Positions 38,864 through 59,123 of a DNA stretch of 64,000 nucleotides are shown here, one piece after another. The stretch spans positions 1 through 64,000 of the forward strand of contig NZ_FRAY01000010.1 of the NCBI RefSeq assembly GCF_900142475.1, read 5' to 3'. A program made the translations under genes and the position numbers. Position 1 is the first letter of the stretch. Each line of letters begins with the position of its first letter. Below the pieces are notes generated by a model, which searched no databases, was not told the origin of the DNA, and saw nothing but the letters and a program-made list of their open reading frames with translations. The stretch comes from Fibrobacter sp. UWH4. Its GTDB lineage: Bacteria; Fibrobacterota; Fibrobacteria; Fibrobacterales; Fibrobacteraceae.

Positions 38864-38979
38864 GCGGCTTGCGCCTCACTTAGGATTGCTAGTCCTCTTC
38901 TTCAATTCAGTCCAAGAGCTAGCTTTCTCTAAAATCGGCCTTGGAGAGAATGTCTCTGGCCTGTCCAATTTGCTTGAAT

Positions 38980-42858: not shown

Positions 42859-43616
42859 TGACCCCTAACGAAAAAATTTCTATTCGCGGCATGGACCTGT
42901 ACTACGGTAATTTCCATGCGCTGAAAGACGTGAACCTTAACATTATGCCCAACGAGATCATGGCCTTTATCGGGCCCTCCGGCTGCGGCAAGAGCACCCT
43001 GCTCAAGTCATTGAACCGTATGAACGATCTGGTGGAAGGTTGCAAGATTACGGGCCACATCCTCCTGGATGGTCAGGATATTTACGGGAAAATGGACCCC
43101 AACATTCTCCGGAAAAGGGTGGGCATGGTGTTCCAGAAACCCAATCCCTTCCCCATGAGCATCTACGACAACATCGCCTACGGCCCCAGGACCCACGGTA
43201 TCCGCAACAAGGCGGAACTGGACGAAATCGTGGAAAAGTCCCTGCGGAATTCCGGTGTGTGGGACGAACTGAAGGACCGCCTGAAAAAGAACGCTCTCGG
43301 TCTTTCCGGCGGTCAGCAGCAGAGGCTCTGCATAGCCCGTGCCCTGGCGGTTTCGCCGGAAGTGCTCCTGATGGATGAACCCACCAGCGCCCTGGACCCT
43401 ATTTCCACCTCCATTATCGAGGACCTGGTTCTGGAACTCAAGAAGGACTATACCATCGTCATGGTGACCCATAACATGCAGCAGGCCACCCGTGTTTCCG
43501 ACAGGACCGCCTTCTTCCTCTTGGGGGAAGTCATCGAAGTCAACAAGACAGAAACCCTGTTCTCGCTGCCCAAGGACAAGCGCACCGAGGACTACATTAC
43601 CGGGAGATTTGGATAA
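42858..43616 (+). CDS. pstB: Phosphate ABC transporter ATPase PstB
   Basis: The 252-residue ATPase has Walker [11 protein letters not shown]-loop region [19 protein letters not shown] (typical of PstB), signature LSGGQQQR, Walker [14 protein letters not shown] and the switch His in [13 protein letters not shown]. It energises PstCA. A diverged 72-nt fragment corresponding to 43443-43514 recurs at 53674-53745. The stop overlaps the phoU start by one base. Confidence 0.97.
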
Positions 43617-44302
43617 TGAGAAACCGTTTTGATTCGCAACTGGAAGCCCTGAACAGGGGCATTATAGAAATGGGCGCCCTGGTGGAAGATTCCCTGAAGG
43701 CCTCCATCGACGCCTTGCTGGCCTTTGACCGCGAAACCGCCAAGAAAATTGTGGTGGGCGACAAGGAAATCGACCAGAAGATGAAGGAAATCGAGACCCT
43801 TTGCCTGCGGCTTTTGCTGAGCCAGCAGCCCGTAGCCCGGGACTTGCGCCTGATTTCTGCTTCCCTGAAAATGGTGGGGGACCTGGAACGCATTGGCGAT
43901 CAGGCTGCAGATATTGCCGAAATCGTGGCGGAGTGTACAGACCTGGATGGGGCTCCCCTGAAACTGGCCGCCATTCCGCCCATGGGCATTGACGTGCTTA
44001 AGATGCTGGCACAGAGTATCGATGCTTTTGTCCGTAAGGACTTGAAGCTGGCCAAGATTGTAATTGAAAGTGACGATGACGTTGATTTCCTTTTCCGCTC
44101 TGCCAAGCGGGAACTGGTGGAAACTATCAGGAAGACGGAAAGTGACGCCGAGAGCATTATCCATTCCATTATGATCGCCAAGTACCTGGAACGCATCGGC
44201 GACCACGCCATGAACGTAGCCCAGTGGGCCATCTTTGCAGAAACCGGTACTCATCACGGTGTCAGCCTCTTGAACGGGGTCGACGATTTCGATGATAAGT
44301 AA
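43616..44302 (+). CDS. phoU: Phosphate signalling regulator PhoU
   Basis: The 228-residue all-helical protein has two PhoU repeats: LNRGIIEMGALVEDSLKASIDALLAFDRETAKKIVVGDKEID and SIDAFVRKDLKLAKIVIESDDDVDFLF, with QPVARDLRLISASLKMVGDLERIGDQAADIAE and MIAKYLERIGDHAMNVAQW as the metal-binding E/D-rich helices. PhoU links PstSCAB activity to PhoR kinase inhibition when phosphate is plentiful. Last gene of the operon; PhoB and PhoR are encoded about 10 kb away on the other strand. Confidence 0.97.
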   Translation: MRNRFDSQLEALNRGIIEMGALVEDSLKASIDALLAFDRETAKKIVVGDKEIDQKMKEIETLCLRLLLSQQPVARDLRLISASLKMVGDLERIGDQAADIAEIVAECTDLDGAPLKLAAIPPMGIDVLKMLAQSIDAFVRKDLKLAKIVIESDDDVDFLFRSAKRELVETIRKTESDAESIIHSIMIAKYLERIGDHAMNVAQWAIFAETGTHHGVSLLNGVDDFDDK

Positions 44303-44309
44303 AAAAACT

Positions 44310-44375
44310 CCCGCGTAAGGTTTTACAAAGACCTTATAGTAAGATCATTGGAACTTTACGCGGGCAGTTTATATT
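44310..44375 (+). promoter_or_regulatory. Promoter and inverted repeat upstream of the phnX operon
   Basis: CCCGCGTAA (44310-44318) pairs with TTACGCGGG (44356-44364) around a 37-nt centre that contains TTTTACAAAGACC (44321-44333), similar to the Pho half-sites elsewhere in the window. The promoter is TTGGAA (44348-44353), 16-bp spacer, TATATT (44370-44375). The arrangement suggests phosphate-starvation control of the phosphonate and polyphosphate genes; the repeat might also act as a terminator of phoU. Confidence 0.6.
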
Positions 44376-44415
44376 TCGCTATGAAATCAGAATTGGTTTA
44401 GAGGTTACCATATAT

Positions 44416-45210
44416 ATGAAAAATCAGTCGGTACAAATGGTTGTCTTTGACTGGGCCGGAACGACGGTTGACTTTGGTTCACAAGCGCCCCTCCAGATAT
44501 TTGATAAGACGTTTAGGCATTTTGGACTCAAGTTTACTTTAGAAGAAATTGCGGGCCCTATGGGAATGGAAAAGAAGGACCATATCCGAGCCTTGCTTTC
44601 TTCTGCAGAAGGTCAGATGTTCTGGAAAATGGCACAGAGAAAAGAGTGGACTGAATCGGATATAGACCTTATTTACGAATGTTTTGGCGCCAATTTGAAA
44701 GCGGTGGTGAAGGATTACAGTCATGTGATAGACGGTGTTCCCGAAACAGTTCAGGCACTTCGTGAAAAGGGGCTAAAAATCGGAAGTACAACGGGCTACT
44801 CTTCTGAAATCATGGTGCCGATTCTTGCCCAGGCGAAAAAAGAAGGCTATAGTCCGGATTGCTATGTGACACCGGATATGTGCGGTTTTAGCCGCCCGAC
44901 TCCTTTTATGCTTTTCGAATGCATGAAACGCCTCCAGGTGTATCCGCCAAAATGCGTAGTCAAGGTGGGGGATACCCTGGTGGATATCGCCGAAGGGAAA
45001 AATGCCGGGGCCTGGTCGGTGGGGGTCTTGACTGGCTCCAGCGTGTTGGGTTTTTCCAAGGAACACTACGATGAACTTTCTAACGGAGAAATCTGGAATG
45101 CGAAGCGGGTGGCAGAACAAAAATTTTTCGATGCCGGTGCGGATTTCGTAATTGATTCTATATCGGACTTGCCGGAGCTTATAAAGCAAATCGATGAAAA
45201 ATTGAGGTAA
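44416..45210 (+). CDS. phnX: Phosphonoacetaldehyde hydrolase PhnX
   Basis: The 264-residue HAD-fold enzyme splits phosphonoacetaldehyde into acetaldehyde and phosphate. The nucleophile motif VVFDWAGTTVDFG (Asp12) and the Schiff-base Lys of the cap (MGMEKKDHIRALL, Lys53) are present, as are STTGYSSEIM, SRPTPFMLFECM and VGDTLVDIAEGKNAG. It heads an operon with an iron alcohol dehydrogenase and phosphonate transporter genes. The usual partner phnW (2-aminoethylphosphonate transaminase) is not in the window. Confidence 0.95.
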   Translation: MKNQSVQMVVFDWAGTTVDFGSQAPLQIFDKTFRHFGLKFTLEEIAGPMGMEKKDHIRALLSSAEGQMFWKMAQRKEWTESDIDLIYECFGANLKAVVKDYSHVIDGVPETVQALREKGLKIGSTTGYSSEIMVPILAQAKKEGYSPDCYVTPDMCGFSRPTPFMLFECMKRLQVYPPKCVVKVGDTLVDIAEGKNAGAWSVGVLTGSSVLGFSKEHYDELSNGEIWNAKRVAEQKFFDAGADFVIDSISDLPELIKQIDEKLR

Positions 45211-45214
45211 CTTT

Positions 45215-46351
45215 ATGGATAGCTTTTATAATTCGGTGCGGGTTTTTCAAGGACGGGGCTGCTTGCGGGAACTCCCCAGTGTCTGCAAGAAAGCCCTGAA
45301 GGATGACCTGTCCGCTATCATTCTCATTCTCGTCTGGGACAAGTCTGTCCTGGAACAAAAGGGAATCCAAAAACTCCAGGAAGAGTTCCCCAACACCCTG
45401 GTAGAAGAATGTTCCGTTTCAAACCCGGAAATCGAGGACCTTTTCGGCCTTTATCAAAAGTTCTACCGTAAAAAGGTGGATTTGATCATTGCCGTCGGTG
45501 GCGGTAGCGTTATGGACCTGGGCAAGTCCCTTTGCATGATCCACGACGAGGAAATTGAATCTGCGGAGGAACTCAGGAACATTATCGCAGAAAAGCGGTA
45601 CAGGAAAAGTTCCCTGCAGTGGATAGGCGTTCCGACTACCTCGGGAACGGGTAGCGAAGTGACCTGCTGGGCAACGGTCTGGGATATGGAAAACCTGAAA
45701 AAATCTTCCATCGAGACCACAGAAAATTATGCCTATGCGGCCTTTGCCGATTCCCGCTTGACGGAAAACTTGCCTATCAAGTTGGCGGTATCTTCCGCCC
45801 TGGATGCGGCCTGCCACGCGGCAGAAAGCTACTGGGCGAAATCCACGAATTCCATTTCCCAGATGTACGCTTTAAAGGCGATTCATCTTATTTTCTCTGC
45901 GCTTCCCGCTCTAGTAGAAAGGCGAGACCCTATCCTTACATCGGAAATTCTGAGTCGGGCAAGCCTTGTTGCAGGGCTTGCCTTTAGTAACACCCATACG
46001 ACGGCTTGCCATTCTATTTCTTACCCCTTGACAATGCTTTTCCGCATTCCCCACGGCGTTGCAGTTGCACTGCTTCTTGGGGGAGTCTTTAAGCTGAATC
46101 AGTCAAAAATCGAGGATTTACCCGAGTTGCTGGAAAGTTTCGGGGTAAAGTCCGTAGACGATATCCAGCCCCTGGTGGAAGGGTTCTTGACGGCGGCAGG
46201 CTTTGAAATAAGGCTTTCGAAGTGGGGGGCGACTGACGCCACCTTAGAAGAGGCTGCAGAAAAGAGCATGACCAAGGGCCGTGCCGACAACAACCCGGTG
46301 CCCCTTGATAAAGAAACGGTTTTAAAAATTCTCAACAACATAAAGGGATGA
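45215..46351 (+). CDS. Iron-containing alcohol dehydrogenase of the phosphonate operon
   Basis: The 378-residue group III (iron) alcohol dehydrogenase has the NAD-binding VGGGSVMDLGKSL, the PTTSGTGSEVT motif, and the metal ligands around DAACHAAESY and the HTTACHSISYPLTMLFRIPHG region. In phosphonate operons such enzymes reduce phosphonoacetaldehyde to 2-hydroxyethylphosphonate, or here might reduce the acetaldehyde made by PhnX. The choice cannot be made from sequence alone. It starts 4 nt after phnX and its end overlaps phnD. Confidence 0.85.
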   Translation: MDSFYNSVRVFQGRGCLRELPSVCKKALKDDLSAIILILVWDKSVLEQKGIQKLQEEFPNTLVEECSVSNPEIEDLFGLYQKFYRKKVDLIIAVGGGSVMDLGKSLCMIHDEEIESAEELRNIIAEKRYRKSSLQWIGVPTTSGTGSEVTCWATVWDMENLKKSSIETTENYAYAAFADSRLTENLPIKLAVSSALDAACHAAESYWAKSTNSISQMYALKAIHLIFSALPALVERRDPILTSEILSRASLVAGLAFSNTHTTACHSISYPLTMLFRIPHGVAVALLLGGVFKLNQSKIEDLPELLESFGVKSVDDIQPLVEGFLTAAGFEIRLSKWGATDATLEEAAEKSMTKGRADNNPVPLDKETVLKILNNIKG

Positions 46352-47286
46352 CCATCATGAATACTAAAAGGATTTCTAACAAAAAAGACTACGCGGTTTT
46401 CGGAATCATAGCGACTATGGTTCTTGCGATCTGCGCCATTTACATTTGCGGATGTAGCGGAGAATCGGTAAAAAACTTCACCATCGCCTACGCGCCAAAC
46501 GAGTCTACGGAACAGAGTACTGATGCCCGTAACGGTCTTGCAAAGGATCTTGGAGCGTTTCTCGGAGTGGAGGTAAAGGAAATTCAGGCCACGGACTACA
46601 ATGCGATTATTGAGGCCCTTCGTACGGGAAAGGCCGACATGGCTTACCTGGGGGCCCTTTCTGTTGCCCTCGCCATGGAACGCGCCGGGGCTGAACCCAT
46701 TGTCATGAAGGCCCCGAAGGGCGACAAGACCCTGGCCACTTACCGCTCCGTGTTTATCGCCAAGAGCGATAACGAAAGGATTAACACCCCCCGTGATGCC
46801 AAGGGCAAGAAAATCGCCTTTGTGGACCCGAATTCCACCTCGGGAAACCTGGTGCCTACTTCTGAGATCATGAATGTGTTTGACGACGAAAAACTGAACT
46901 CCGACCTGATTCACACCAACGGGAAGTTTTTCGAGGCGGTGAGCTTTTCCGGTAAGCACCAGGCCGGCCTCCAGGCGGTCATCAAGGGCGATGTGGATAT
47001 TGTCCCCATTTCCGACCAGATCCTTGCTTCGGAAATTGCCAACGGCAATGCGGCTGAGGGTTCTGTAAAGGTTATTCACTCCTCGGCTCCGATTCCTGCC
47101 GAAGTCATGACCGTTGGCAAAACGGTTTCTCCGGAACTGAAGGCAAAACTCGTCAAGTTCCTGACGGCCTACGACAATGCAGAATATTTCGCAAAGGTCA
47201 TCAAGGTGCCTAGCGCCCGGTTTGTACCTTCTTCCAAGGATGATTACGCCGCAATCGTGACCCTTAACCGCAACATCAACCAGTAA
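46348..47286 (+). CDS. phnD: Phosphonate-binding lipoprotein PhnD
   Basis: The 312-residue protein has an N-terminal membrane/lipoprotein signal (ICAIYICGC) and a PhnD-type periplasmic binding domain: FTIAYAPNESTEQSTDARNGLAKDLGAFLGVEVKEIQATDYNAIIEALRTGKADMAYLGALS, KKIAFVDPNSTSGNLVPTSEI and SGKHQAGLQAVIKGDVDIVPISDQI. It delivers phosphonates or related anions to PhnCE. Start ATG overlaps the preceding stop (ATGA); a second ATG three codons later is possible. Confidence 0.93.
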   Translation: MTIMNTKRISNKKDYAVFGIIATMVLAICAIYICGCSGESVKNFTIAYAPNESTEQSTDARNGLAKDLGAFLGVEVKEIQATDYNAIIEALRTGKADMAYLGALSVALAMERAGAEPIVMKAPKGDKTLATYRSVFIAKSDNERINTPRDAKGKKIAFVDPNSTSGNLVPTSEIMNVFDDEKLNSDLIHTNGKFFEAVSFSGKHQAGLQAVIKGDVDIVPISDQILASEIANGNAAEGSVKVIHSSAPIPAEVMTVGKTVSPELKAKLVKFLTAYDNAEYFAKVIKVPSARFVPSSKDDYAAIVTLNRNINQ

Positions 47287-47316
47287 TCGGAAAATTTGGC
47301 AAGGTTATAGTATTTT

Positions 47317-48123
47317 ATGGAACCGATTTTAAGATTCGACCATGTGACGAAACGTTACGGGAACGGGGTCCGTGCCCTGAAGGACGTGTCCCTTTCCATA
47401 AGGCCCGGTGAATTTGTATCCATCATCGGCCCTTCGGGCTCGGGAAAGTCTACCCTTCTGCGGTCTATCAACAAGCTGATTTCTACGACAGAAGGGAACG
47501 TTTTTTTCGACGGTGAAAACGTGGCGTCCCTTCGCGGAAGCAGACTCCGCAGGAGTCGATCTAAAATCGGTATGATTTTCCAGAATTACAACCTGGTCAA
47601 TAACCTTTCGGTTCTTCAGAACGTACTCCACGGCCGCCTGGGGCACATGAAGGGTATCCGGGGAATCCTCGGGCTCTATTCCGAAGAGGACAAGGAAAAC
47701 GCCTGGAACCTTCTGGAAGAAATGGGCCTTGAAAATTTCAGCTATAACAAGGCGGGAACCCTTTCCGGTGGGCAAAAGCAGCGGGTGGGAATTGCCCGTG
47801 CCATTATCCAGGATCCTAAAATCCTCCTGTGTGACGAGCCTATTGCCTCCCTGGACCCTTCCAGCGCCAAGGTCATAATGGACCTTTTAAGAAAAATGGC
47901 CCAGAAGCGGGGCATTCCCTGCCTGGTGAATCTGCATCAGGTCGATGTGGCTCTACGGTATTCCACGCGAATCATCGGACTCCATGCCGGTGAGGTTGTC
48001 TTTGACGGAAGCCCCGAAGAATTGAACGGGACCGCCATGGAGCGGATTTATGGAACTTCGGTTTACAACTTAGTGGCAGGGACCTCCGATGAAACGGAAA
48101 TGCGGCAAGCCTATGCAGTCTGA
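47317..48123 (+). CDS. phnC: Phosphonate ABC transporter ATPase PhnC
   Basis: The 268-residue ATPase shows Walker A GPSGSGKST, the PhnC-type IGMIFQNYNLVNNLSVLQNVLHGRLGH, signature LSGGQKQR and Walker B ILLCDEPIASLDP with NLHQVDVALRY as the switch region. It powers PhnE permeases. The end overlaps the phnE1 start region by 35 nt. Confidence 0.95.
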   Translation: MEPILRFDHVTKRYGNGVRALKDVSLSIRPGEFVSIIGPSGSGKSTLLRSINKLISTTEGNVFFDGENVASLRGSRLRRSRSKIGMIFQNYNLVNNLSVLQNVLHGRLGHMKGIRGILGLYSEEDKENAWNLLEEMGLENFSYNKAGTLSGGQKQRVGIARAIIQDPKILLCDEPIASLDPSSAKVIMDLLRKMAQKRGIPCLVNLHQVDVALRYSTRIIGLHAGEVVFDGSPEELNGTAMERIYGTSVYNLVAGTSDETEMRQAYAV

Positions 48124-48892
48124 AAAGCGGCTCTATAACATCCTGTTCTTCTGCATTGTAGCGTTGTTTGTGGCCAGCACCGCCTTTACCCGCTACAATC
48201 CATTTGAGGTATTCTTTAACCTGGAAAATTTCCGTTCCTTTATCGTGGACGATTTCTTTCCGCCAGCCCTTCCTACGGGCCTGAAACTAGAAGCGATTTT
48301 TCAGGGAATCCTGACGACTATCTGCATGGCCCTCTCGGCGACAACGGTGGCGGCGCTCCTAGCCTTCTTGACATCCCTCTTTGCCAGTAAGCGGGTGTCT
48401 CCTGCTGCCTGGTCCCCGAAGTTTGTCCGCGGCTTTGCCACCTTTCTTAGAAACATTCCCGCTCTGGTTTGGGCCTTTATCCTGTTCTCTTCTTTGGGGA
48501 TTGGTACGGGAGTTGGTTTTGTCGCCCTCTGCATTAGCAGTTACGCCTTCATGGTTCGCGCCTTTTCCGAAACCATCGACGACATTTCCCAGGACAATCT
48601 GGAAAGCTTGCAGGCGGCAGGGGCTTCCTTTATCCAGGTGGTGTTCCACGGCATTTTGCCCTCTTGCTTGCGGGGCTTTATTTCCTGGTTCCTGTACTGC
48701 ATCGAGGTGAACCTCCGGTCTTCTACGGTGGTAGGCATGGTCGGGGGAGGTGGCATCGGCCTTGTGCTGCTTTCGTACCTGAAAGGCTTCAAGTATAACA
48801 TGTCCTTTACCATTATTCTCGCTATCGCCGTAATGGTCCTGTTTGTAGATGCTCTTACCAACTATTTACGCAAGGAGCTGGATTTAGAATGA
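48089..48892 (+). CDS. phnE: Phosphonate ABC transporter permease PhnE (first copy)
   Basis: The 267-residue inner-membrane permease has about six transmembrane segments. FVRGFATFLRNIPALVWAFILFSSLGIGTGVGFVAL and the EAA loop DNLESLQAAGASFIQVVFHGILPS followed by RSSTVVGMVGGGGIGLVL are typical of PhnE. The ATG at 48089 lies inside phnC; an in-frame ATG at 48113 would shorten it by eight residues. The next permease gene starts 4 nt before its stop. Confidence 0.93.
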   Translation: MKRKCGKPMQSEKRLYNILFFCIVALFVASTAFTRYNPFEVFFNLENFRSFIVDDFFPPALPTGLKLEAIFQGILTTICMALSATTVAALLAFLTSLFASKRVSPAAWSPKFVRGFATFLRNIPALVWAFILFSSLGIGTGVGFVALCISSYAFMVRAFSETIDDISQDNLESLQAAGASFIQVVFHGILPSCLRGFISWFLYCIEVNLRSSTVVGMVGGGGIGLVLLSYLKGFKYNMSFTIILAIAVMVLFVDALTNYLRKELDLE

Positions 48893-49707
48893 CGGCAACA
48901 GCAATCCGCAGGACGGCCTCGGGAAAAATGAGGATCGACTGCATCGAAAAGAATCGGTCGGCCTCTGTATTTCTGGTTGTCATGGCGGTTCTCTCCATTT
49001 TGGGAATGCTTTACCTGGATATTCCCTGGTCCAAGATGCTTGCCCGTGTCCCTCAGGTGGCGGGAGTGTTCTGGAAACTGGGGCATCTTGATTTTTCGAA
49101 CTTCGACCTCATCGGTACGGCCCTTTGGGAAACCATTTCCATTACGGTGCTTTCCACTATTTACAGTCTGCTCCTTTCCATCTTTTTTGGCATGCTGGCT
49201 GCAGAAAACATTTTTCGGTGTCCCCTCCTTTCCACTTCGGTCAAGGCTGTCTTTTCCTTCCTCCGTGCCGTGCCCACCCCGGTATGGGTCCTCTTGATGA
49301 TGATCTGTATCGGGATGGGACCTGCGGCTGGAATTGCGGGGCTCTGTGTACACACCACGGCTTTCTTTACACGGGCTTTTGCCCAGAGTTTTGAGGCGGT
49401 CCCTACCCAGACCATAGAAGCTTTACAGTCGGCGGGAGCGAGCCGGATTTCCGTATTCTTCAATGCGGTTCTTCCCTCGGCTATCCCGGAACTGGTGGCC
49501 TGGACGGGAATGCGCTTCGAAATCAACTTCTCGGAATGTGCCATCCTTGGCATGGTGGGGGCTGGCGGTATTGGCTATGTCATCTCCACTAACATCGAAG
49601 GATATGAATACGGTACGGCGGGACTTGCCGTCCTCTGCGTATTCGTCATTGCCTTTTGCATTGAACGGGCCTTTATCTGCATCAAGGCCAGGCAACGGGC
49701 CTGCTAA
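48889..49707 (+). CDS. phnE: Phosphonate ABC transporter permease PhnE (second copy)
   Basis: The 272-residue permease is related to the preceding one. Features are AVFSFLRAVPTPVWVLLMMICIGMGPAAGIAGLCVHTTAFFTRAFAQSFEAV, the EAA loop QTIEALQSAGASRISVFFNAVLPSAIPELVAWTGMRFEINFSECAILGMVGAGGIGYVI and six membrane segments. With the first PhnE it likely forms a heterodimeric channel, as in many two-permease phosphonate transporters. Start overlaps the previous stop. Confidence 0.93.
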   Translation: MTATAIRRTASGKMRIDCIEKNRSASVFLVVMAVLSILGMLYLDIPWSKMLARVPQVAGVFWKLGHLDFSNFDLIGTALWETISITVLSTIYSLLLSIFFGMLAAENIFRCPLLSTSVKAVFSFLRAVPTPVWVLLMMICIGMGPAAGIAGLCVHTTAFFTRAFAQSFEAVPTQTIEALQSAGASRISVFFNAVLPSAIPELVAWTGMRFEINFSECAILGMVGAGGIGYVISTNIEGYEYGTAGLAVLCVFVIAFCIERAFICIKARQRAC

Positions 49708-49732
49708 CTCACACGGTAACGAAGGAACCATT

Positions 49733-51796
49733 ATGAAACTGACGGAAGAAAACTACATCGAGCGGGATGTGTCGTGGATGCTTTTTAACCGCCGCATTCT
49801 GGCGGAAGCCCAGCGACAGGAAATTCCGCTGATGGAGCGGCTTAACTTTTTGGGAATTTACAGCAATAACTTGGATGAATTTTTCCGGGTCCGCGTAGCG
49901 ACTCTCAACCGCATCGTGGATTTTGCGGACAAGAATTCCAAGGACCTTCGAGAACGTAGCAAGCAGGCCTTAAAGACTATTGGAAGGCTTAACGCCAAGT
50001 ACGCCCAGACCTTCAAGGAAACCGTTACGGATGTGTTCAACCAGTTGCAGAAAAAACATATCCACCTTCTTTCGGAGCAGGAACTGGACGATTCCCAGAA
50101 AGAGGCCGTAAAGGAATACTGCCTCTCGAAACTGGCGGGAAACCTTTCTCCCGTCTGGCTTTCTTCGGTCCAGGGAGTCAATTCCCTGTCCGATGACTCC
50201 ATCCACTTTGTCGTCCGCCTCAAAAAGCAGGACGAGCAGAAGAAGGGGCGCCGCAAGGGCTATGCCATTATCGAGATTCCCGTCAAGAAGTTCGGCCGTT
50301 TCGTGCAACTGCCCGATGTCAGTTCCGGTAATGTTACGGACCATTACGTCATGTACCTGGACGATGTAATCCGCTGCGCCTTGCCCTACCTTTTCCCGGG
50401 TTCCGGCTTCAACCGTTTCGAGGCCTGGTCCTTCAAGTTTACGAAGGATGCGGAAATGGAACTGGATACCAACATCCAGGGCGGTACGCTGCAGAAAATC
50501 GCCAAGGGGGTCAGGAGCCGCAAGAACGGCTTGCCAATCCGTTTTATCTACGACGAGAAAATGCCCCGGGAAGTGCTGAAGAAATTGCTGGAACAGCTGA
50601 AGCTTTCTTCGGTGGACGCGAGCCTTCCTTCGGGCCGCCATCAGAACCATAAGGACCTGATGAAGTTTCCGCGGTTTGAAGCTCCTAGGGGAACGAAGTT
50701 CGAATACCCCAAGTGGCCTTCGGTCATGCCCGCCTGGGCCATGGCCCCCACCCTTCTGGATGTCATCCGCGAAAAGGACCGCTTCATCCATGTGCCTTAC
50801 CATTCCTTCGATGCCTACATCAACCTGTTGCGGGAAGCCGCCATCAATCCGGAAGTCAAGGGAATCAAGACCACCCTCTACAGGCTCGCCCGTGATTCGA
50901 AGGTTATCGGTTCCCTGATCGCCGCGGCCCGTAACGGCAAGAAGGTGACGGTGGTCATCGAGCTCTTGGCCCGCTTTGACGAGGAATCCAATATCGACTG
51001 GTGCAAGAAAATGGCCGATGCGGGTATCCATGTGATTATGGGGGTGGAAGGCCTCAAGATTCACTCCAAGGTGACGCTGATTACGGCGAAGAAGGGAAAC
51101 CTGGCCTGTATTTCTACGGGCAACTTCCACGAAGGAAACGCCTGCGCCTATACGGACTTTCTGCAGTTCACGGCGCGGCAGCCTATTGTAAAGGATGTGG
51201 AGCGGCTCTTCGACTTTATCGAGAAACCCTATATGTCCGTCAAGTTCAAGGAGCTGGTGGTTTCACCCAACGACATGCGCCGTCAGTTGACGCGGCTCAT
51301 TAACCAGGAAATCCGCAACCATAACCTGGGCTACCCGGCCTATATCCTGTGCAAGCTCAACCATGTCACTGACGAAAGCATGGTGAAAAAAATTTACGAA
51401 GCCGCTTCGGCGGGTGTCAAGGTGGATTTGCTGGTGCGTGGCAACTGTTCTTTGGTGCCTTCCTTGCCGGAACTGGGCGGAAACCTGCGGGTAAACGCCA
51501 TTATCGACCGCTACCTGGAACATTCCCGTATCCTCATCTTTGCTAACGGTGTAGATCTGGAACACCTGGGAGTGGGCGAAGAAGACGGAAGCTACCACGA
51601 CTACAAGGTTTTTATCGGTTCGGCCGACTGGATGCCCCGAAATCTGGACCACCGCATCGAAGTCTATTCTCCGGTTTTCGACATCGACATTAAGCGGGAA
51701 GCCCGGCTCGTCGTGGAGCAGGGCATGCGCAACAATTACAATAGTTTCAGGTCCCAGGCGGAACTGTACAAACATTACAAGGCAGTAGAAAAGTAA
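49733..51796 (+). CDS. ppk1: Polyphosphate kinase 1
   Basis: The 687-residue enzyme makes polyphosphate from ATP. N-terminal ERDVSWMLFNRRILAEAQRQEIPLMERLNFLGIYSNNLDEFFRVRV is the classic Ppk1 start; FIHVPYHSFDAYINLLREAA and GIKTTLYRLARDSKVI follow. Catalytic His444 lies in GLKIHSKVTLIT; the second active-site His640 lies in MPRNLDHRIEVYSPV. The start ATG at 49733 has GAAGGA upstream; the longer frame runs into phnE. Only 1 nt separates it from ppx, and it follows the phosphonate genes, so phosphate import and storage appear coordinated. Confidence 0.96.
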   Translation: MKLTEENYIERDVSWMLFNRRILAEAQRQEIPLMERLNFLGIYSNNLDEFFRVRVATLNRIVDFADKNSKDLRERSKQALKTIGRLNAKYAQTFKETVTDVFNQLQKKHIHLLSEQELDDSQKEAVKEYCLSKLAGNLSPVWLSSVQGVNSLSDDSIHFVVRLKKQDEQKKGRRKGYAIIEIPVKKFGRFVQLPDVSSGNVTDHYVMYLDDVIRCALPYLFPGSGFNRFEAWSFKFTKDAEMELDTNIQGGTLQKIAKGVRSRKNGLPIRFIYDEKMPREVLKKLLEQLKLSSVDASLPSGRHQNHKDLMKFPRFEAPRGTKFEYPKWPSVMPAWAMAPTLLDVIREKDRFIHVPYHSFDAYINLLREAAINPEVKGIKTTLYRLARDSKVIGSLIAAARNGKKVTVVIELLARFDEESNIDWCKKMADAGIHVIMGVEGLKIHSKVTLITAKKGNLACISTGNFHEGNACAYTDFLQFTARQPIVKDVERLFDFIEKPYMSVKFKELVVSPNDMRRQLTRLINQEIRNHNLGYPAYILCKLNHVTDESMVKKIYEAASAGVKVDLLVRGNCSLVPSLPELGGNLRVNAIIDRYLEHSRILIFANGVDLEHLGVGEEDGSYHDYKVFIGSADWMPRNLDHRIEVYSPVFDIDIKREARLVVEQGMRNNYNSFRSQAELYKHYKAVEK

Positions 51797-51797
51797 A

Positions 51798-52772
51798 ATG
51801 AAACGTGCAAGAAAGAATCCTATCAACCTGGCCGCCATCGATATCGGCTCCAATGCGGCCCGCCTTCTCATCAAGACCGCCACTTTCCAGGAAGACGGCT
51901 CTGTTAACCTGGAAAAGCAGCAGTTTATCCGCTTTCCCCTGCGCCTGGGCGTTGACGTTTTCCAGGACGGGAAAATCAGCGAGGAACGGGAAGAACAGTT
52001 CTTGTGCATGATTAAGGCCTTCAAGCAGTTTATGAACATATACAATGTGGCGGATTACCGTGCCTGTGCTACTTCGGCCTTGCGGGACGCGACCAACGGC
52101 CAGAAAGTGCTGCGCCGAATCCGCCGCCGTACCGGAATCGATATCGAACTGATTTCAGGCGAAGAAGAAGCTCGGGTCATTTACGACAACCACACGGAAC
52201 AGCTCCTGGAAACCGCTCCTCGAAAAAACGGCCTCGAAAGGACCTACCTTAACGTAGATGTGGGCGGCGGTTCTACCGAAATTAGCCTCATTTACCAGGG
52301 CCAGCTCATGGGAAGCCGAAGTTTCAATATCGGTACCCTGCGGTTGCTCATCGGCCTGGTGGACATGGATTCCATAGACGACATGTGCGACGAAATCCGC
52401 ATGATGATGGTGAATCGGGGGCCCGTTTCTATTATCGGTTCCGGCGGAAACATCAACAAGCTTTATCGTCTGGTACCCAAGAAGGTGCGGCGGGATAATC
52501 GCCTTTCCCTGACGCAACTAGAACAGCTTTACGACAAACTTTCTTCCCTCAGTTTCGAGGAACGGATGAAACAGTTCGACCTCCGCTCCAGCCGTGCCGA
52601 CGTCATTGTACCGGCGGCCCAGATCTTTATCTCTATCGCGAGGGCAGTCAAGGCCACCGAAATCATCGTCCCCACCATCGGCCTTGCCGACGGCATCATC
52701 AAGGAACTCTGCACAAAGATACAGACGGGGGGGAAGCGTCGGGAAATTGGTAAAGACGCAGAACGCAATTAG
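51798..52772 (+). CDS. ppx: Exopolyphosphatase (Ppx/GppA family), 3' end altered
   Basis: The 324-residue protein has the ASKHA phosphatase features NLAAIDIGSNAARLLIKTA, ACATSALRDATNG, ISGEEEARVIY, LNVDVGGGSTEISLI and SIIGSGGNINKLYRLV. It degrades polyphosphate or pppGpp. Its last 10-12 codons (after CTKIQTGG) run out of frame through DNA that belongs to a foreign AlbA-type gene, so the natural C-terminus has been replaced; the catalytic domain is complete. A diverged copy of codons corresponding to 52308-52532 recurs at 53431-53655. Confidence 0.9.
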   Translation: MKRARKNPINLAAIDIGSNAARLLIKTATFQEDGSVNLEKQQFIRFPLRLGVDVFQDGKISEEREEQFLCMIKAFKQFMNIYNVADYRACATSALRDATNGQKVLRRIRRRTGIDIELISGEEEARVIYDNHTEQLLETAPRKNGLERTYLNVDVGGGSTEISLIYQGQLMGSRSFNIGTLRLLIGLVDMDSIDDMCDEIRMMMVNRGPVSIIGSGGNINKLYRLVPKKVRRDNRLSLTQLEQLYDKLSSLSFEERMKQFDLRSSRADVIVPAAQIFISIARAVKATEIIVPTIGLADGIIKELCTKIQTGGKRREIGKDAERN

Positions 52773-53430
52773 TGCAATGTATTTGCGCAAAAGCAACAGC
52801 TATACGGAAAATACCGTTTATCCGGGGCTTCGCGAAATTGATATTAAACGCGGAATGCTTAAGAAGGCCAAGGATTTGATTCGTTCCATCAGGTCCAATC
52901 ACCCGTGGCTCAAATTGAACAAGGAAGAATTTTTCAGAGCGGCTGGTTTGATTCGCTATGATTCTACCATTGGAAAGTCGGGCTATACGCTTGCTGCGCT
53001 TATGCTGGTCGGTACGGACGAAGCGATTTCAAGTTATTTGCCATATTATAAAATTGAAGCAATAGTTCGCAAACAAGACCTGATGCGCTACGATGATCGC
53101 TTGACCGTCACATGCAATCTGATTGATGGTTACGAATTGCTGAACGGGTTTATCGAAAAGCATCTCCCTGACAAATTCTATTTGGATGGGAAAACTAGAC
53201 TCTCTTTGCGTGACAAGATTTTTAGAGAAGTGATTGCGAATATGCTGATACATCGTGAATACATGAATCCGATTCCAACAACGCTCGTTATTTATAAAGA
53301 TAAGCTTGTGACGAATAATGCGAACAAGCCCTTTGCGTACGAGAAATTAGCATCTCAACTTTGTTCTTATCCTAAGAATCCGCATATCGCCACAATGTTT
53401 GCACAGATGGGGTTTGCGGAATACCTTGGT
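52741..53430 (+). pseudogene. Fragment of an AlbA-type ATP-binding/RNA-binding-domain protein
   Basis: The frame reads KTQNAISAMYLRKSNSYTEN, then IRSNHPWLKLNKEEFFRAAGLIRYD, GKSGYTLAALMLVGTDEAISSYLPYYKIEAIVRKQDLMRYDDRL and SLRDKIFREVIANMLIHREYMNPIPTTLVIYKDKLVTNNANKP, up to MGFAEYLG. This is the middle of the large AlbA_2 (Schlafen-like) accessory ATP-binding family. The N-terminal AlbA_2 domain (about 190 residues) and the C-terminus are missing. At the right end it fuses in frame to a piece of ppx. No ribosome site precedes a credible start. It is debris of recombination. Confidence 0.8.
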
Positions 53431-53655
53431 ATGGGTAGCCGTAGTTTCAATATCGGAACCCTACGGCTGCTCTGCGGCCTGGTGGACATGGATTCCGTAG
53501 ACGACATGTGCGACGAAATCCGCATGATGAAGGTGAACAGGGGGCCCGTTTCTATTATCGGTTCTGGTGGAAACATCAACAAGCTTTACCGGCTGGTGTC
53601 CAAGAAGGTGCGGCTGGACAATCGCCTTTCCCTGGTCCAGCTGGAACGGCTTTAA
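53431..53655 (+). pseudogene. Diverged duplicate fragment of ppx
   Basis: These 75 codons encode MGSRSFNIGTLRLLCGLVDM and onwards to LSLVQLERL, then stop. They match ppx codons at 52308-52532 with several amino-acid changes (I to C, I to V, M to K, P to S, R to L) and many synonymous ones. The divergence is too high for a fresh tandem copy, suggesting origin from another allele or paralog. It is in frame with the AlbA-type fragment before it. Confidence 0.88.
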
Positions 53656-53673
53656 GAAAATATAAATCACCCG

Positions 53674-53745
53674 AAGGACTATACCGTCGTCATGGTGACC
53701 CATAATATGCAACAGGCCACCTGCGTTTTCGATAGGACCGCCTTT
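53674..53745 (+). pseudogene. Diverged duplicate fragment of pstB
   Basis: 24 codons encode [20 protein letters not shown] and end RTAF, matching PstB around its switch His (43443-43514). No other part of pstB is present. It lies between the ppx fragment and a flavodoxin tail. Confidence 0.85.
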
Positions 53746-53758
53746 GACCCGACAGAGC

Positions 53759-53776
53759 CATAAGTGGGTGGAATAG
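53759..53776 (+). pseudogene. Remnant of a flavodoxin 3' end
   Basis: Six codons encode HKWVE and a TAG stop, followed by GGCTTGC, resembling the end of the exported flavodoxin at 38843-38863 (DKWVK, stop, then GGCGGCTTGC). Short, but it stands beside other debris and has a longer counterpart at 58222. Confidence 0.5.
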
Positions 53777-53784
53777 GCTTGCTT

Positions 53785-55152
53785 CTAGCAGAAAGTCACG
53801 GTTATTTCCGTGCCTACGCCTATGGCGGATTGTAACGAAATCTCTGCATGGTGCACTTCGGCGATATGCTTCACGATTGCGAGGCCTAGCCCCGTGCCGC
53901 CAGTGGCCTTGGAACGGCTCTTGTCTACCCGGTAAAAGCGTTCGAAGATGCGAGGCTGATTTTCTTCGGGAATGCCAATCCCAGTATCCTTCACAGCAAT
54001 GGATTTTTGTTGCACTAGAATACTCACGGAACCACCCGTTTCTGTATAGCGAATGGAATTGTCGACCAGGTTGTAAAGCATTTCAAAAAGGAGTTTGTAA
54101 TTGCCCTGTACCTGAGCGGCAGCATCCCCTTCCAGGGACACTTGGATGTTTTTCTTGCTGGCGTTAAGGGACAACTCCTCGATGCAACCGGAAGCTAGGG
54201 GCCACAGGTCTACAGTCTCGTTCAAGTCTATCGCAGATTCTCCCGGGGCATCCAGCTTGGAAAGAGTCATGATGTCATTCGCAATGGAAAGCAGACGGTT
54301 CGCTTCCTTGTGGATTTTTCCGGCAAAGAGTTTCACATCTTCGGGTTTCGCCATGTCATTTTCGATGAGTTCCGCGTAGCCCGAAATGGAGGTAAGAGGT
54401 GTTTTCAACTCGTGAGAAGCATTAGCGGTAAACTCGTCACGCATCTGGGCGGTCTTCTTCTTTTCTTCGGAAAGTTGCTCTATGGTGAGTTGCAGTTCCC
54501 GGTTCTGCTTGCGGATGGTTTTGACAAGCGGTGCGATTTCCTTGTAAATTCCCTCGTCGTCCATGAGCTCGGGCTGCCCCAGGTTTTCAGCCAGTTTCTG
54601 CACCGGCCGCACAAAAAACCGGCTCAAGCCAAAGGCAATCAGTATAGACACTACCACGATGGCAGCCAAAAGGGCAATCAGGTAAGGCGTGGTCTTGGAT
54701 ACCGATTCATGGAGGCTCGCCAGCCTGCGGCTGAGGCGCAACACATTTCCATCGGAAAGGCGCTCCGCAACGTAAAACACCTTGGCATTCAAGGTCACGG
54801 AGTAACGGAGGTTTTCACCGGAGCCCTTGTTGATGGCCTCCTGTATTTCCGGGCGGTTCCGGTGGTTTTCCATTTTGGCCGCCTCGGCATCGCTTTCGTA
54901 AATCACCTTGCCGTCCCTATCTACCAAGGTAATGCGCAGGTTCTCGCTGGCAAAATCAGGCAGGCACGCTACGGGTCCATCAGAAGAATCCATCTTGCCG
55001 TAGGCGACTTCAACGAGATGGGCTGTTTCCCGCAAGTCCCGTTTCAACTGCTCCGACATTTCGTTCTCGAAAACCTGCGCCGTGAAATACACCGCAAAGA
55101 GAGCGGCGAGTACTCCGACATAAATCAAGCTGAAGCGGATGCTGTTTTTCAT
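53785..55152 (-). CDS. phoR: Phosphate-regulon sensor histidine kinase PhoR
   Basis: The 455-residue membrane kinase has transmembrane segments at about 8-28 and 156-178, enclosing a periplasmic region of about 125 residues, then HAMP-like (FFVRPVQKLAENL), the phosphoacceptor box ASHELKTPLTSISGYAELI (His247), NYKLLFEMLYNLVDNSIRYTE and GIGIPEENQPRIFERFYRVDKSRSKATGGTGLGLAI. It overlaps phoB by 4 nt. In this window it presumably responds to PstSCAB-PhoU signalling. The periplasmic loop resembles that of Firmicutes PhoR/PnpS proteins. Confidence 0.93.
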   Translation of the reverse strand: MKNSIRFSLIYVGVLAALFAVYFTAQVFENEMSEQLKRDLRETAHLVEVAYGKMDSSDGPVACLPDFASENLRITLVDRDGKVIYESDAEAAKMENHRNRPEIQEAINKGSGENLRYSVTLNAKVFYVAERLSDGNVLRLSRRLASLHESVSKTTPYLIALLAAIVVVSILIAFGLSRFFVRPVQKLAENLGQPELMDDEGIYKEIAPLVKTIRKQNRELQLTIEQLSEEKKKTAQMRDEFTANASHELKTPLTSISGYAELIENDMAKPEDVKLFAGKIHKEANRLLSIANDIMTLSKLDAPGESAIDLNETVDLWPLASGCIEELSLNASKKNIQVSLEGDAAAQVQGNYKLLFEMLYNLVDNSIRYTETGGSVSILVQQKSIAVKDTGIGIPEENQPRIFERFYRVDKSRSKATGGTGLGLAIVKHIAEVHHAEISLQSAIGVGTEITVTFC

Positions 55153-55826
55153 AGAGCCTTGTATCCTACGTTTCGCACGGTCTGTACGATAGAACCATGC
55201 GACCCCAGTTTTTGACGAAGGGTTTTCACATGCATATCTACGGTGCGGGTGTCCATATCAAAATCAATGCCCCAGATCTTTTCCAGAATCTGCTGCCTAG
55301 AGAAAACAGTTCCCGGTCGGGACATCAGAAGTTTTAAAAGTTCATATTCCTTAAAAGTAAGTTCTACAGCGACTCCGTCGACAGTTACCGAACGACGCTG
55401 GTCATCAAGAATCACGCCTCCGAGAGCCAAGTTCGACGCCTCCGTTCTTTCGGCAGGTCCTTGTCCAGAACGGCGAAGTACAGCCCGCACGCGAGAAATG
55501 AGTTCCAGAATGCCAAACGGCTTTGCGATATAGTCGTCGGCCCCTAGGTCAAGACCTTTTACTTTGTCCAGCTCCGTACCCTTGGCCGTGAGCATGATTA
55601 CCGGGACATTTCGCGTATTTTCTTGGTTACGGAGGCGTTTCAGAATACTCAAGCCGTCTTCACCGGGGAGCATGATGTCCAATATGAACAAATCCGGAAC
55701 GACCGATTTCACCTGTTCATCCAGTGCCTTGCCGCAATCGAAAGACATCACCTCGAAACCGCTACTCTTCAAGGCGTAGGTTTCCATTTCACGGACATCG
55801 GCGTCATCTTCCACAATATAGATCAT
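55149..55826 (-). CDS. phoB: Response regulator PhoB
   Basis: The 225-residue OmpR/PhoB-type regulator has receiver residues Asp7-Asp8 (VEDDAD), phosphoacceptor Asp50 (LFILDIMLPGEDG), Thr/Lys in MLTAKG and YIAKPFG, and a C-terminal winged helix (FKEYELLKLLMSRPGTVFSRQQILEKIWG, RTVDMHVKTLRQKLG, VRNVGYKAL). It lies between the PiT gene (16 nt) and phoR (overlap) and is expected to bind the 11-bp-phased CTTTAC/GTAAAG sites found in this window. Confidence 0.93.
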   Translation of the reverse strand: MIYIVEDDADVREMETYALKSSGFEVMSFDCGKALDEQVKSVVPDLFILDIMLPGEDGLSILKRLRNQENTRNVPVIMLTAKGTELDKVKGLDLGADDYIAKPFGILELISRVRAVLRRSGQGPAERTEASNLALGGVILDDQRRSVTVDGVAVELTFKEYELLKLLMSRPGTVFSRQQILEKIWGIDFDMDTRTVDMHVKTLRQKLGSHGSIVQTVRNVGYKAL

Positions 55827-55842
55827 AGGTCCATCCTCGGGA

Positions 55843-58077
55843 TTAAGGTTTAGCGGTCAGGAACTTCCTGCTGGCCTTGGCGACAGACCCTACCGAATCC
55901 AGCAAAGCCCAGGACTCGTAAAGGATAGTTAAATAAAGGATTTCTGCGCGGATGTTTTCGGAACCGGCCTTCATCATCTCGGCCTTTCGCTCAGCAAATA
56001 TCCTGGAACCTTCTTCCCGCAGCTGCCCCCGGACTTGGTCGTAACGGCCAAAGTCCATGGTTTCCACCATCCCAGCGACACTCTCGATACGCTCCTTCAC
56101 GTGGGCCGCTGTTCGCAGGAGCATCTTCCGCTTCTCGTTGTCCATCGGGTTAAAACCATTGTCCACATGGTTCTTGCAGGGCGAAGAAATCTGCTCTAGG
56201 CTAAACAGGGCGTCCCCCATAAAGTCATTGGCCTGGTACAGGAAAAAGTTTTTGACCACCAAATCTTCTTGGGCGAGCCTTTCTGTACACAGGGTTCCGT
56301 GGCGACGGTTCCGCTGCACATGTTTCTTTAGGATTTTAATTTGTTTGTTCTCCGAGCGGAGCTTTCCTAAATCTTCCCGCAACAAGCCTATCAGCAGCTT
56401 TTCATAGCAATCGGCACACCAGCGGAGAATTTCGCTCCATTCGCCCCGACTGTATTCCTGTATAAGGGGGTATATCTTTGTCTCGGGGGGAGCCGTCAGG
56501 ATGTTATCAAACAATTCCTCCGCCTTACCCTTCTTGTTTTCTCGGTATTTCAGGTTCGAACGAATCAATACGAAAATGACCACGGCAAAAAGACCGAATA
56601 TGGCTGGGAAACCGCCAAAGTAAAGCACTGTCGCCACAGCAGAAGCACTGGCAAATGCGGCGAAGGCCGTAAGGAACCATCCGCCAATTACCGAGAGTAC
56701 CCCTGTAATGCGGTATACGGCCGTTTCACGGTTCCATGCCTTGTCGGCAAGACTAGTGCCCATAGCCACCATGAATGTCACGTAGGTCGTAGAAAGGGGG
56801 AGTTTCAGGGACGTGCCCAATGCAATGAGGGAGCTTGCAAGCATTAGGTTTACGCAAGCCCGCAATAAATCAAAGGCGGCGCCATCCTCTTCCAGAATCA
56901 TTTCCTTGGTATTAAAGCGGGTGTTAATTTTATCCGAAATTTTCCTTGGAATAAATTCTGTTACAAATTTTACGACACCATTAGAACTGCGAACTAAGGC
57001 GCGAGCGACCGGATTTGTACCAAAGATTTCTTCAGAAGAATTTTGGGCCGCGAGGGATACGGAAGTCTTCACCACATTCCGGGCCTTCTTGGAAAACACA
57101 AGGGAAAATACCATGGTAAGCCCAGCAACCATCAGCAAGTACCACTGTCCTGGTTCCGACTCCAGCAAGAAGGACATGTTGAAATCCTGAGGGTTGCCCC
57201 CAGCAGCCATCAAGTGCTGCACCGAAGAAAGACTGGTGAGGGGCACACCCACAAAATTTACAAGGTCGTTTCCGGCAAAGGCTAGGGCCAGAGAAAAAGT
57301 CCCAAAAGCAATGATTACCTTGAGCACGTTTACTTTTACTGCATGGAGCAGGTGACAAAGGATGAAAAACGCGACGAACATGCCTGCTACAAGAACGGTC
57401 TCATTTTCTGCGAGAAACGCCTTGTAGCCCGGCCCCACGAAACTCATATTTTTGAGGCCCTTGATAAGGATAAAATAAAATATGGACGTCAGGGAAACGC
57501 TTCCAAAAACGCCAATAAAGTATCGAATATACTTCTTGTAGCCAAAGGAGAAAACCAGGCGCGTCACATACTGCACCGCAAGGCCAACTACAAAAGCGAT
57601 GGCCACCGAGAGGAAAATGCCCAAAATCACCGTCAGAGCCTTAGAGGTGTTGATGAGGTTTCCCAGTTCCAGGGTATCGTCAGAAAGAATTTTGATACTG
57701 GCGATAGCCACAGAGGCGCCCAAAAGTTCAAAGACCATTGATACCGTAGTTGATGTCGGCATACCGTAGGAATTGAATATGTCAAGGAGGATCACATCGG
57801 TAAACATCACCGCCGCATATACGCACATAAGTTCTGCAAAGGTGTAATACTGGGGCATATAAATGCCATGCCGTGCGATATCCATCATGCCACTACTGAA
57901 TGTGGCGCCACAAAAGACTCCTACCGCAGCAAAGATCATCAGGGTTTTATACTTAAATGCCTTGCTTCCTACGGCGGAACTCAAGAAATTCACGGCATCG
58001 TTACTGACACCCACGAACAAGTCCATCAAGGCGAGCAGAAGCAGCATTGCCACAAGGATGATATAAAACGTAGTCAT
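55843..58077 (-). CDS. PiT-family inorganic phosphate transporter with C-terminal PhoU-like domain
   Basis: The 744-residue protein has a PiT permease part with about 10-12 membrane segments and both PiT signatures: VGVSNDAVNFLSSAVGSKA near the start and ALAFAGNDLVNFVGVPLTSL in the middle. From about residue 510 a cytoplasmic helical region follows (PLIQEYSRGEWSEILRWCADCYEKLLIGLLRED...FMGDALFSLEQISSPCKNHV) that looks PhoU-like. The start MTTFYIIL at 58077 has AGGAG six bases upstream; a frame to 58146 runs through the leader terminator. It heads the operon with phoB and phoR. Confidence 0.92.
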   Translation of the reverse strand: MTTFYIILVAMLLLLALMDLFVGVSNDAVNFLSSAVGSKAFKYKTLMIFAAVGVFCGATFSSGMMDIARHGIYMPQYYTFAELMCVYAAVMFTDVILLDIFNSYGMPTSTTVSMVFELLGASVAIASIKILSDDTLELGNLINTSKALTVILGIFLSVAIAFVVGLAVQYVTRLVFSFGYKKYIRYFIGVFGSVSLTSIFYFILIKGLKNMSFVGPGYKAFLAENETVLVAGMFVAFFILCHLLHAVKVNVLKVIIAFGTFSLALAFAGNDLVNFVGVPLTSLSSVQHLMAAGGNPQDFNMSFLLESEPGQWYLLMVAGLTMVFSLVFSKKARNVVKTSVSLAAQNSSEEIFGTNPVARALVRSSNGVVKFVTEFIPRKISDKINTRFNTKEMILEEDGAAFDLLRACVNLMLASSLIALGTSLKLPLSTTYVTFMVAMGTSLADKAWNRETAVYRITGVLSVIGGWFLTAFAAFASASAVATVLYFGGFPAIFGLFAVVIFVLIRSNLKYRENKKGKAEELFDNILTAPPETKIYPLIQEYSRGEWSEILRWCADCYEKLLIGLLREDLGKLRSENKQIKILKKHVQRNRRHGTLCTERLAQEDLVVKNFFLYQANDFMGDALFSLEQISSPCKNHVDNGFNPMDNEKRKMLLRTAAHVKERIESVAGMVETMDFGRYDQVRGQLREEGSRIFAERKAEMMKAGSENIRAEILYLTILYESWALLDSVGSVAKASRKFLTAKP

Positions 58078-58099
58078 AAAATCTCCTAGGCGACAAACT

Positions 58100-58126
58100 A
58101 AAAAGCCTTGCGACAATACGCAAGGC
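58100..58126 (-). terminator. Terminator-like hairpin in the leader of the PiT-phoB-phoR operon
   Basis: On the minus strand GCCTTGCG (58126-58119), TATTGT, CGCAAGGC (58112-58105) and TTTTT (58104-58100) form a perfect 8-bp terminator hairpin. It lies between the Pho-box region and the PiT ribosome site, so it either attenuates the operon or ends incoming transcription. Confidence 0.75.
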
Positions 58127-58160
58127 GATGGAATGAGGTTTTCCAAAGGTTTTATTAGGA

Positions 58161-58221: not shown

Positions 58222-58257
58222 AAGGCCCAAAAAGAAGTCGACAAGTGGGTGAAACAG
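58222..58257 (+). pseudogene. Right boundary repeat: flavodoxin 3' end without a gene body
   Basis: The 36 nt encode KAQKEVDKWVKQ, identical in protein to the end of the exported flavodoxin at 38303 except that TAG has become CAG. The four other differences are synonymous third bases. Nothing else of a flavodoxin precedes it. It abuts the abiEii stop codon and marks the right edge of the phosphate island. Confidence 0.8.
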
Positions 58258-58259
58258 GC

Positions 58260-59123
58260 TTATTGTTTCCATTCTTCGGTGATGGTGCAGAAAAAGTCCT
58301 CGCTCCAAAGATTTAGTTTGTCGCTATCGGCAATGAACGGGCGGACATCCCTTTTCGCCTCCTCGAAATCGACGGAGTGGAAACGTTCCTTTAGTAGATC
58401 CTTGAGTCCATCAAAAGTCAAGGAGTCCGAACTTTTCCAGTGCCCGGTCTGTTCCATTCTCTTTTGCAGGTGCGGCAGGTTTACGCCTGTGTTCTGCGAG
58501 ATATACCATACAAAGTCGTAGAAATCGCGACCCTTGACCCTGTTTTTCCATCCGCGACAAAGTAACGCGTGGAGTTTGCCCGCAAAAAGCGAGGGCTTGT
58601 CGTAGAGGCGAACCATGAAAGGCGATGGCAGCAGCCGATACTTGCTTTCGTAGGTGGCTGACTCTGGCGGATTCGTATCCACCTCGAATTTGATTTTCAG
58701 GATTTCGTTCCCGGGAACGGGCAAGGGAGAGTGCTTTGCGGGAACAATTTTAAGCAAGTGCTTAAGCGTGTTGCCCTTGAGAAAGGCCGACTGCACCGGA
58801 GATCCGTGCGGCTTGCTTTTCGCTTCGACTGACATCTCCAGGCCGACAGAGTAGAGTTCTTCTTCAAGCACGCCAAAATAACGTGAAAGTTCGAAACCTT
58901 CGTCTGGCTTAATCAACGAAAAGTCCAGGTCCTCCGAAAAACGGTCCAGCCCATAGAATATGCGGAGCGCCGTGCCGCCATAGAAGGCTGCCTTGTCGAA
59001 GAACCCTCCACGTGAAAGTCCGCACAGGGCGACTTCCTGCGAAATTTCCTTGAGGGCGTTCCTGTAGTCCGAAACATTTTTGCAATTATATTTCGCAAGC
59101 ATTGAATCAAGTACGTGAGCCAT
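58260..59123 (-). CDS. abiEii: AbiEii-type nucleotidyltransferase toxin
   Basis: The 287-residue protein has the AbiEii nucleotidyltransferase core: AAFYGGTALRIFYGLDRFSEDLDFSLI, with GGTALR at 49-54 and the catalytic Asp65/Asp67, then the LSRYFGVLEEELYSVG helix and a C-terminal segment KPSLFAGKLHALLCRGWKNRVKGRDFYDFVWYI typical of the family. AbiEii toxins transfer nucleotides to targets such as tRNA. It starts 2 nt after the abiEi stop; together they form a type IV toxin-antitoxin system used against phages. Confidence 0.92.
   Translation of the reverse strand: MAHVLDSMLAKYNCKNVSDYRNALKEISQEVALCGLSRGGFFDKAAFYGGTALRIFYGLDRFSEDLDFSLIKPDEGFELSRYFGVLEEELYSVGLEMSVEAKSKPHGSPVQSAFLKGNTLKHLLKIVPAKHSPLPVPGNEILKIKFEVDTNPPESATYESKYRLLPSPFMVRLYDKPSLFAGKLHALLCRGWKNRVKGRDFYDFVWYISQNTGVNLPHLQKRMEQTGHWKSSDSLTFDGLKDLLKERFHSVDFEEAKRDVRPFIADSDKLNLWSEDFFCTITEEWKQ

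Follow-up and report, generated by a model that had tools for sequence, protein, structure and literature searches.

What assembled the string of gene fragments that lies between ppx (51798-52772) and phoR (which ends at 53785) in a Fibrobacter genome? We analysed a stretch of 64,000 nucleotides within a 68.6-kb contig of this genome, referred to here as the window. The fragment mosaic occupies window positions 52748-53783. An initial annotation had reported four fragments at this place, derived from an AlbA-type gene, ppx, pstB and a flavodoxin gene, and each was found again by alignment, all four well beyond chance level. Reading from ppx to phoR, the order is an internal piece of an AlbA_2-type gene, a ppx piece, a 17-bp filler, a pstB piece and a degenerate 3' tail of the flavodoxin gene. 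The features of the locus are the following.

38303-38863, plus strand: flavodoxin gene fld (Pfam Flavodoxin_4), whose last ~40 bp (38828-38866) form a repeat that recurs at block boundaries
38866-38915, no strand: start of the pst block on its left side, where alignment with the block start of G033 shows what is left of a GNAT-like gene at its 3' end; this gene is a separate block elsewhere
42858-44302, plus strand: pstB and phoU; the end of phoU is the left limit of the segment without counterpart in the empty-site relatives, whose matches stop at 44302 and resume at 53430
44303-49722, plus strand: phosphonate genes (phosphonoacetaldehyde hydrolase, Fe-alcohol dehydrogenase, phnD/C/E/E, named by family), inserted between phoU and ppk; missing in G064, where phoU abuts ppk
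51798-52772, plus strand: resident ppx (Ppx-GppA); a 1-nt insertion alters its last codons, it reads into the AlbA piece, and its native terminator is lost
52748-53431, plus strand: internal piece of an AlbA_2-type gene (Schlafen AlbA_2 / HATPase_c_4, the Pfam domains of the intact gene); intact genes of G030 and G014 match it at 96-97%
53430-53443, no strand: AlbA/ppx junction, with TA identical and both parents alike at 12 of 14 bases
53430-53655, plus strand: ppx remnant, 74 codons and then a stop; member of the common deletion scar
53656-53672, no strand: 17-bp filler between the ppx and pstB remnants
53673-53744, plus strand: pstB remnant of 24 codons, 90% identical to local pstB
53747-53783, plus strand: degenerate fld 3' tail, at the boundary of the pst and phoR blocks
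53785-58146, minus strand: phoR-phoB-PHO4 transporter block, which in G020 lies directly behind fld
58222-58260, plus strand: well-preserved copy of the fld 3' tail, located between the phoR block and an AbiEii gene

A search of relatives divided the interval at the AlbA/ppx junction into two parts with different matches. To the right of the junction, the ppx piece (53430-53660) aligned with local ppx (52309-52537) at 88% identity (E 1.6e-79), and the pstB piece with local pstB (43442-43513) at an E value of 1.4e-21. Degenerate tails were scored by an ungapped scan; the one at 53747-53783 gave a local alignment score of 40, against a maximum of 30 in 2000 shuffles. The ppx remnant differs from local ppx at 26 of 222 sites, 15 of them at third codon positions. 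The proposal that the ppx and pstB pieces are too divergent to be recent local copies was borne out by these counts, and since more than half of the differences fall at the third position, the ppx allele of the scar had accumulated its divergence while still a working gene, before it was broken.

We then looked at how these pieces are arranged in other genomes. The ppx remnant, the pstB remnant and the tail are contiguous in G033, G022, G082 and G061 (G022 and G061 being metagenome assemblies), where they run into phoR. The scar is 99.5-99.7% identical among these four and 96-97% identical to that of the window; differences among its copies are mostly replacements, as in decaying sequence, and the missense changes include W/Y for R/N. 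The empty-site relatives G033, G022 and G082 have the order phoU-scar-phoR, in which the sequence corresponding to window 44303-53430 is missing and the scar starts a few bases after phoU. Because the three pieces are contiguous in relatives, following phoU and without 44303-53430, they form one older inherited unit that was not assembled in the window genome.

The start of the scar in the relatives (GTAACTAGAAATATTATAAAACTGAC) matches the phoU-ppk junction of G064 (GTAACTAGGAACCATTATGAAACTGAC), a genome that has the gene order phoU-ppk-ppx without phosphonate genes and without the scar. The match extends up to ...AAACTGAC and then jumps to about codon 165 of ppx. Both ends of the deletion follow the order of the intact operon, namely phoU stop, ppk start and ppx middle, when G033, G022, G082 and G061 are compared with G064. 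The scar therefore arose by a deletion that took out ppk and the 5' half of ppx. The ppk start is a fifth piece, kept by the relatives, removed from the window by the AlbA join and invisible to the initial annotation. The scar resembles a deletion pseudogene of an operon (phoU-ppk-ppx), in which loss of internal sequence brings the beginning of one gene up against the middle of its neighbour and the remainder decays. It differs in that it also carries a pstB scrap and a flavodoxin-tail boundary, and in having spread between species.

Derivation from a second, now lost, phosphate locus or from another strain had been suggested for the ppx and pstB pieces. The divergent allele agrees with this, whereas a separate second locus is unnecessary, because the scar begins with the phoU end and the first bases of ppk, and a deletion at the phoU-ppk-ppx operon of another lineage suffices. 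The same proposal led to a search for intact versions that match the fragments best and are contiguous. Contiguity of ppx, pstB and tail was found in the four genomes named above, but among the 80 genomes of the genus no intact version closer to the fragments than the local genes was detected, the best intact ppx matching the remnant at 88%. The parent allele of the scar is presumably lost or unsampled.

The four scar-bearing relatives have 89%-99% identity in pstB+phoU, phoR and the PHO4 transporter gene, compared with the 99.5-99.7% of the scar. Windowed differences revealed abrupt changes of divergence along the locus; in G082 and G061, for example, 13-22 differences per 150 bp in phoU drop to none in the scar. 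These patterns show that short tracts have often been exchanged from one species to another, with the locus as a patchwork of such tracts, and the scar itself has spread horizontally between species. In L021 (9251-13000) compared with L022 and L083, divergence likewise shifts abruptly within pstB, phoU, phoR and phoB. The claim that the island was built by repeated recombination therefore survives in part: repeated recombination did shape the locus, but a piecewise gathering does not fit, since ppx, pstB and tail are already joined in the four relatives.

The part to the left of the junction has another source. The AlbA part matched G030, G014 and G031 at 95-97%, with the piece at 52748-53431 reaching 96-97% over 696 bp in G030 and G014 (reported E 0). 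It corresponds to about codons 141-370 of an intact 498-codon open reading frame in L023 of G030, whose product carries the domains Schlafen AlbA_2 and HATPase_c_4 (Pfam). The window retains a central piece of 684 bp, lacking the AlbA_2 domain, the HATPase_c_4 end and the C-terminus. Five replacement changes separate it from both intact genes and none separates those two, which is consistent with decay since a presumed capture. The piece differs from every known copy and has no other copy in the window genome; it alone is special to the window lineage, the rest of the mosaic being inherited. In G030 (L023, 6383-9911), the intact gene by eye adjoins a DNA methyltransferase-like gene, suggesting an accessory restriction or defence setting.

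The AlbA and ppx pieces share one reading frame (52594-53655), as the initial annotation had read, with 74 codons contributed by ppx. The ATGGG-AGCCG microhomology proposed for their fusion was not confirmed; the two parents share 2 exact bases (TA) inside the 14-bp stretch with 12 matches. At the left ppx/AlbA junction (52747/52748), there is essentially no overlap. Within 52720-52772, the native end of ppx (TEDGVGK) has been lost through the 1-nt insertion and the AlbA join, and the stop codon now lies inside the AlbA piece. The native end is kept in G061 and G064, and is followed in G061 by a strong terminator-like hairpin. No terminator was found on the plus strand at the ppx end in the window, and transcription may run on toward the convergent phoR. 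The resident ppx keeps its domain, and the mosaic pieces are non-functional by-products.

On the basis of these comparisons, we consider it probable that the mosaic has two layers, an inherited deletion scar and a window-specific, AlbA-carrying replacement with a one-sided illegitimate join. The genome comparison shows the first layer: a deletion in an ancestral phoU-ppk-ppx operon, whose ppx allele differed by ~12% from the resident one, removed ppk along with the 5' half of ppx; the remaining 3' end was joined through the short filler to the pstB scrap and the flavodoxin-tail boundary, and the resulting scar spread between species. In the second layer, an incoming phoU-phn-ppk-ppx segment that carried the middle of an AlbA_2-type gene at its right end would have displaced, in the window lineage, the sequence from phoU to the scar. 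Its left side would have entered by homologous recombination within pst/phoU and its right side by an illegitimate join at a short near-match, a combination known as homology-facilitated illegitimate recombination (HFIR). The identity of pst/phoU with the empty-site relatives, 91-97%, makes one end of the incoming segment homologous to the recipient. The comparison with empty sites thus shows where the fragment mosaic came from: mostly one inherited and horizontally spread scar, with a single new join.

HFIR is known from S. pneumoniae, A. baylyi, P. stutzeri and conjugation in E. coli; it is RecA-dependent, and its published joins mostly share 3-10 bp (PMC3240628). As in HFIR, one end of the window event lies in common sequence (pst/phoU), the other is joined to unrelated sequence at a short near-match, and recipient DNA was lost. 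Some 40-45 bp that the relatives hold between the phoU stop and the join are missing from the window scar, which is below the published HFIR average. On the other hand, the insert is ~9 kb rather than ~1 kb, the exact overlap is 2 bp, and HFIR has been seen experimentally in other bacteria, whereas the window event is read from sequence. The mechanism required two illegitimate joins, the second being ppx/AlbA. The two-layer account is weakened because these joins share 2 and 0 bases, compared with the published 3-10 bp. No donor in which ppx was already fused to AlbA turned up in the genus genomes searched, and the junction pattern had no match in viral contigs. A comEC-family gene is present, and competence is putative. 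G061 has another fill at the same boundary (L081, 1-1790), consisting of a 3' part of PFOR (identified by eye; 97% to a copy in G000) joined at 6 shared bases to a 105-bp phoU tail, which is followed by the scar. We take this fill as no more than supporting evidence, since it comes from a metagenome assembly in which a chimera is possible.

Other histories were weighed against this one. An entire AlbA_2-type gene might once have been inserted in the space between ppx and the scar, and deletions might then have trimmed it on both sides, with no anchored illegitimate recombination. We regard this as unlikely, though it deserves to be kept in mind: the piece is internal, both its ends are gone, and the replacement changes fall on the window branch as decay predicts, yet both deletions would have to end exactly in the last codons of ppx and in the scar, the reading frame of the piece is still open, and no intermediate occurs among the 80 genomes. 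The proposal of the initial annotation, that the fragments were gathered separately in the history of this genome, draws on their divergence from the local genes; it is contradicted for three of the four fragments by the identical joining of ppx, pstB and tail in four other species, and we hold it to be very improbable. The junctions are known from assembly, so a false joining of unrelated sequence had to be considered as well. The scar recurs in four independent assemblies, however, and the AlbA piece has no second copy in the genome that could be mis-joined, which argues against mis-assembly, as does its difference from every known copy; an artefact is hardly credible. Equally hard to credit is that the fused AlbA-ppx frame (292 codons from the ATG at 52777) or the scar is a functional gene or RNA. 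The frame is still open and the scar is more alike between species than the flanking genes, but the fusion contains no complete domain and has no NCBIfam match, the W/Y for R/N changes are typical of decay, and the high identity of the scar is explained by recent spread, with neighbouring tracts similarly patchy.

A further alternative is that a site-specific system acting at the fld 3' tail moves blocks as cassettes, with the mosaic as debris of cassette boundaries. The tail is present in 31 of the 80 genus genomes, about a dozen of which have two or more copies on one contig, always in one orientation. The tails separate differing blocks in varying order, among them the pst operon, phoR-phoB-PHO4, two DUF4143 ATPases, a GNAT-like gene (by eye only, with no Pfam or NCBIfam match) and AbiE genes. 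In G020 the fld tail is directly joined to phoR, and in G016 a DUF4143 gene is inserted at this place between ~40-bp direct repeats, so that the two form a filled/empty pair. These observations favour cassette movement. Against it, neither a tyrosine nor a serine recombinase was found beside the tail in 14 genomes, serine recombinase matches being present in only 2 of the 14 and on other contigs; the tail has no attC-like fold, and the AlbA joins are not at the tail. The spread requires no more than homologous recombination between tails and shared flanks. We therefore judge a cassette origin of the mosaic improbable and retain the two-layer account, in which the mixture of pieces is mostly one common scar and the join that remains belongs to a known type. 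Integron gene cassettes were also considered and rejected, with fold z-scores of -0.13, 0.58 and -1.37 and no adjacent tyrosine recombinase. Copies of the fld tail between exchanged blocks were seen in L026, L027, L122, L123, L125, L127, L131, L142 and L144, in addition to the three window copies.

SCC elements at rlmH represent an integration hotspot with a duplicated gene 3' end. The fld hotspot is similar in that several blocks stand in a row after one gene's 3' end, with direct copies of that end between them and a single orientation, but it differs in that no recombinase was found in or beside the blocks. No description of a flavodoxin hotspot in Fibrobacter was found in the part of the literature searched. 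It is conceivable, though we would give it little credence, that Fibrobacter has an undescribed cassette-like array, in which the last ~40 bp of fld are the recombination site, the mosaic is boundary debris, and blocks for phosphate uptake and sensing, toxin-antitoxin and ATPases are stacked, reordered and swapped between species by a recombinase that acts on the array from another part of the genome. The mosaic itself is a matter of ordinary genome decay and transfer, and it is the hotspot beside it that is interesting. The results point to a common site behind one flavodoxin gene at which Fibrobacter species swap whole blocks for phosphate uptake and defence; this is directly testable, and the array of flavodoxin tails merits a separate study.

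The cluster for phosphonate uptake and breakdown (44303-49722) separates phoU from ppk in the window and in G061, and is not found in G064. In G064 (L080), pst-phoU-ppk-ppx and the flavodoxin gene share a contig at a distance of ~16 kb, and the pst block does not stand behind the flavodoxin gene; therefore, the block has moved.
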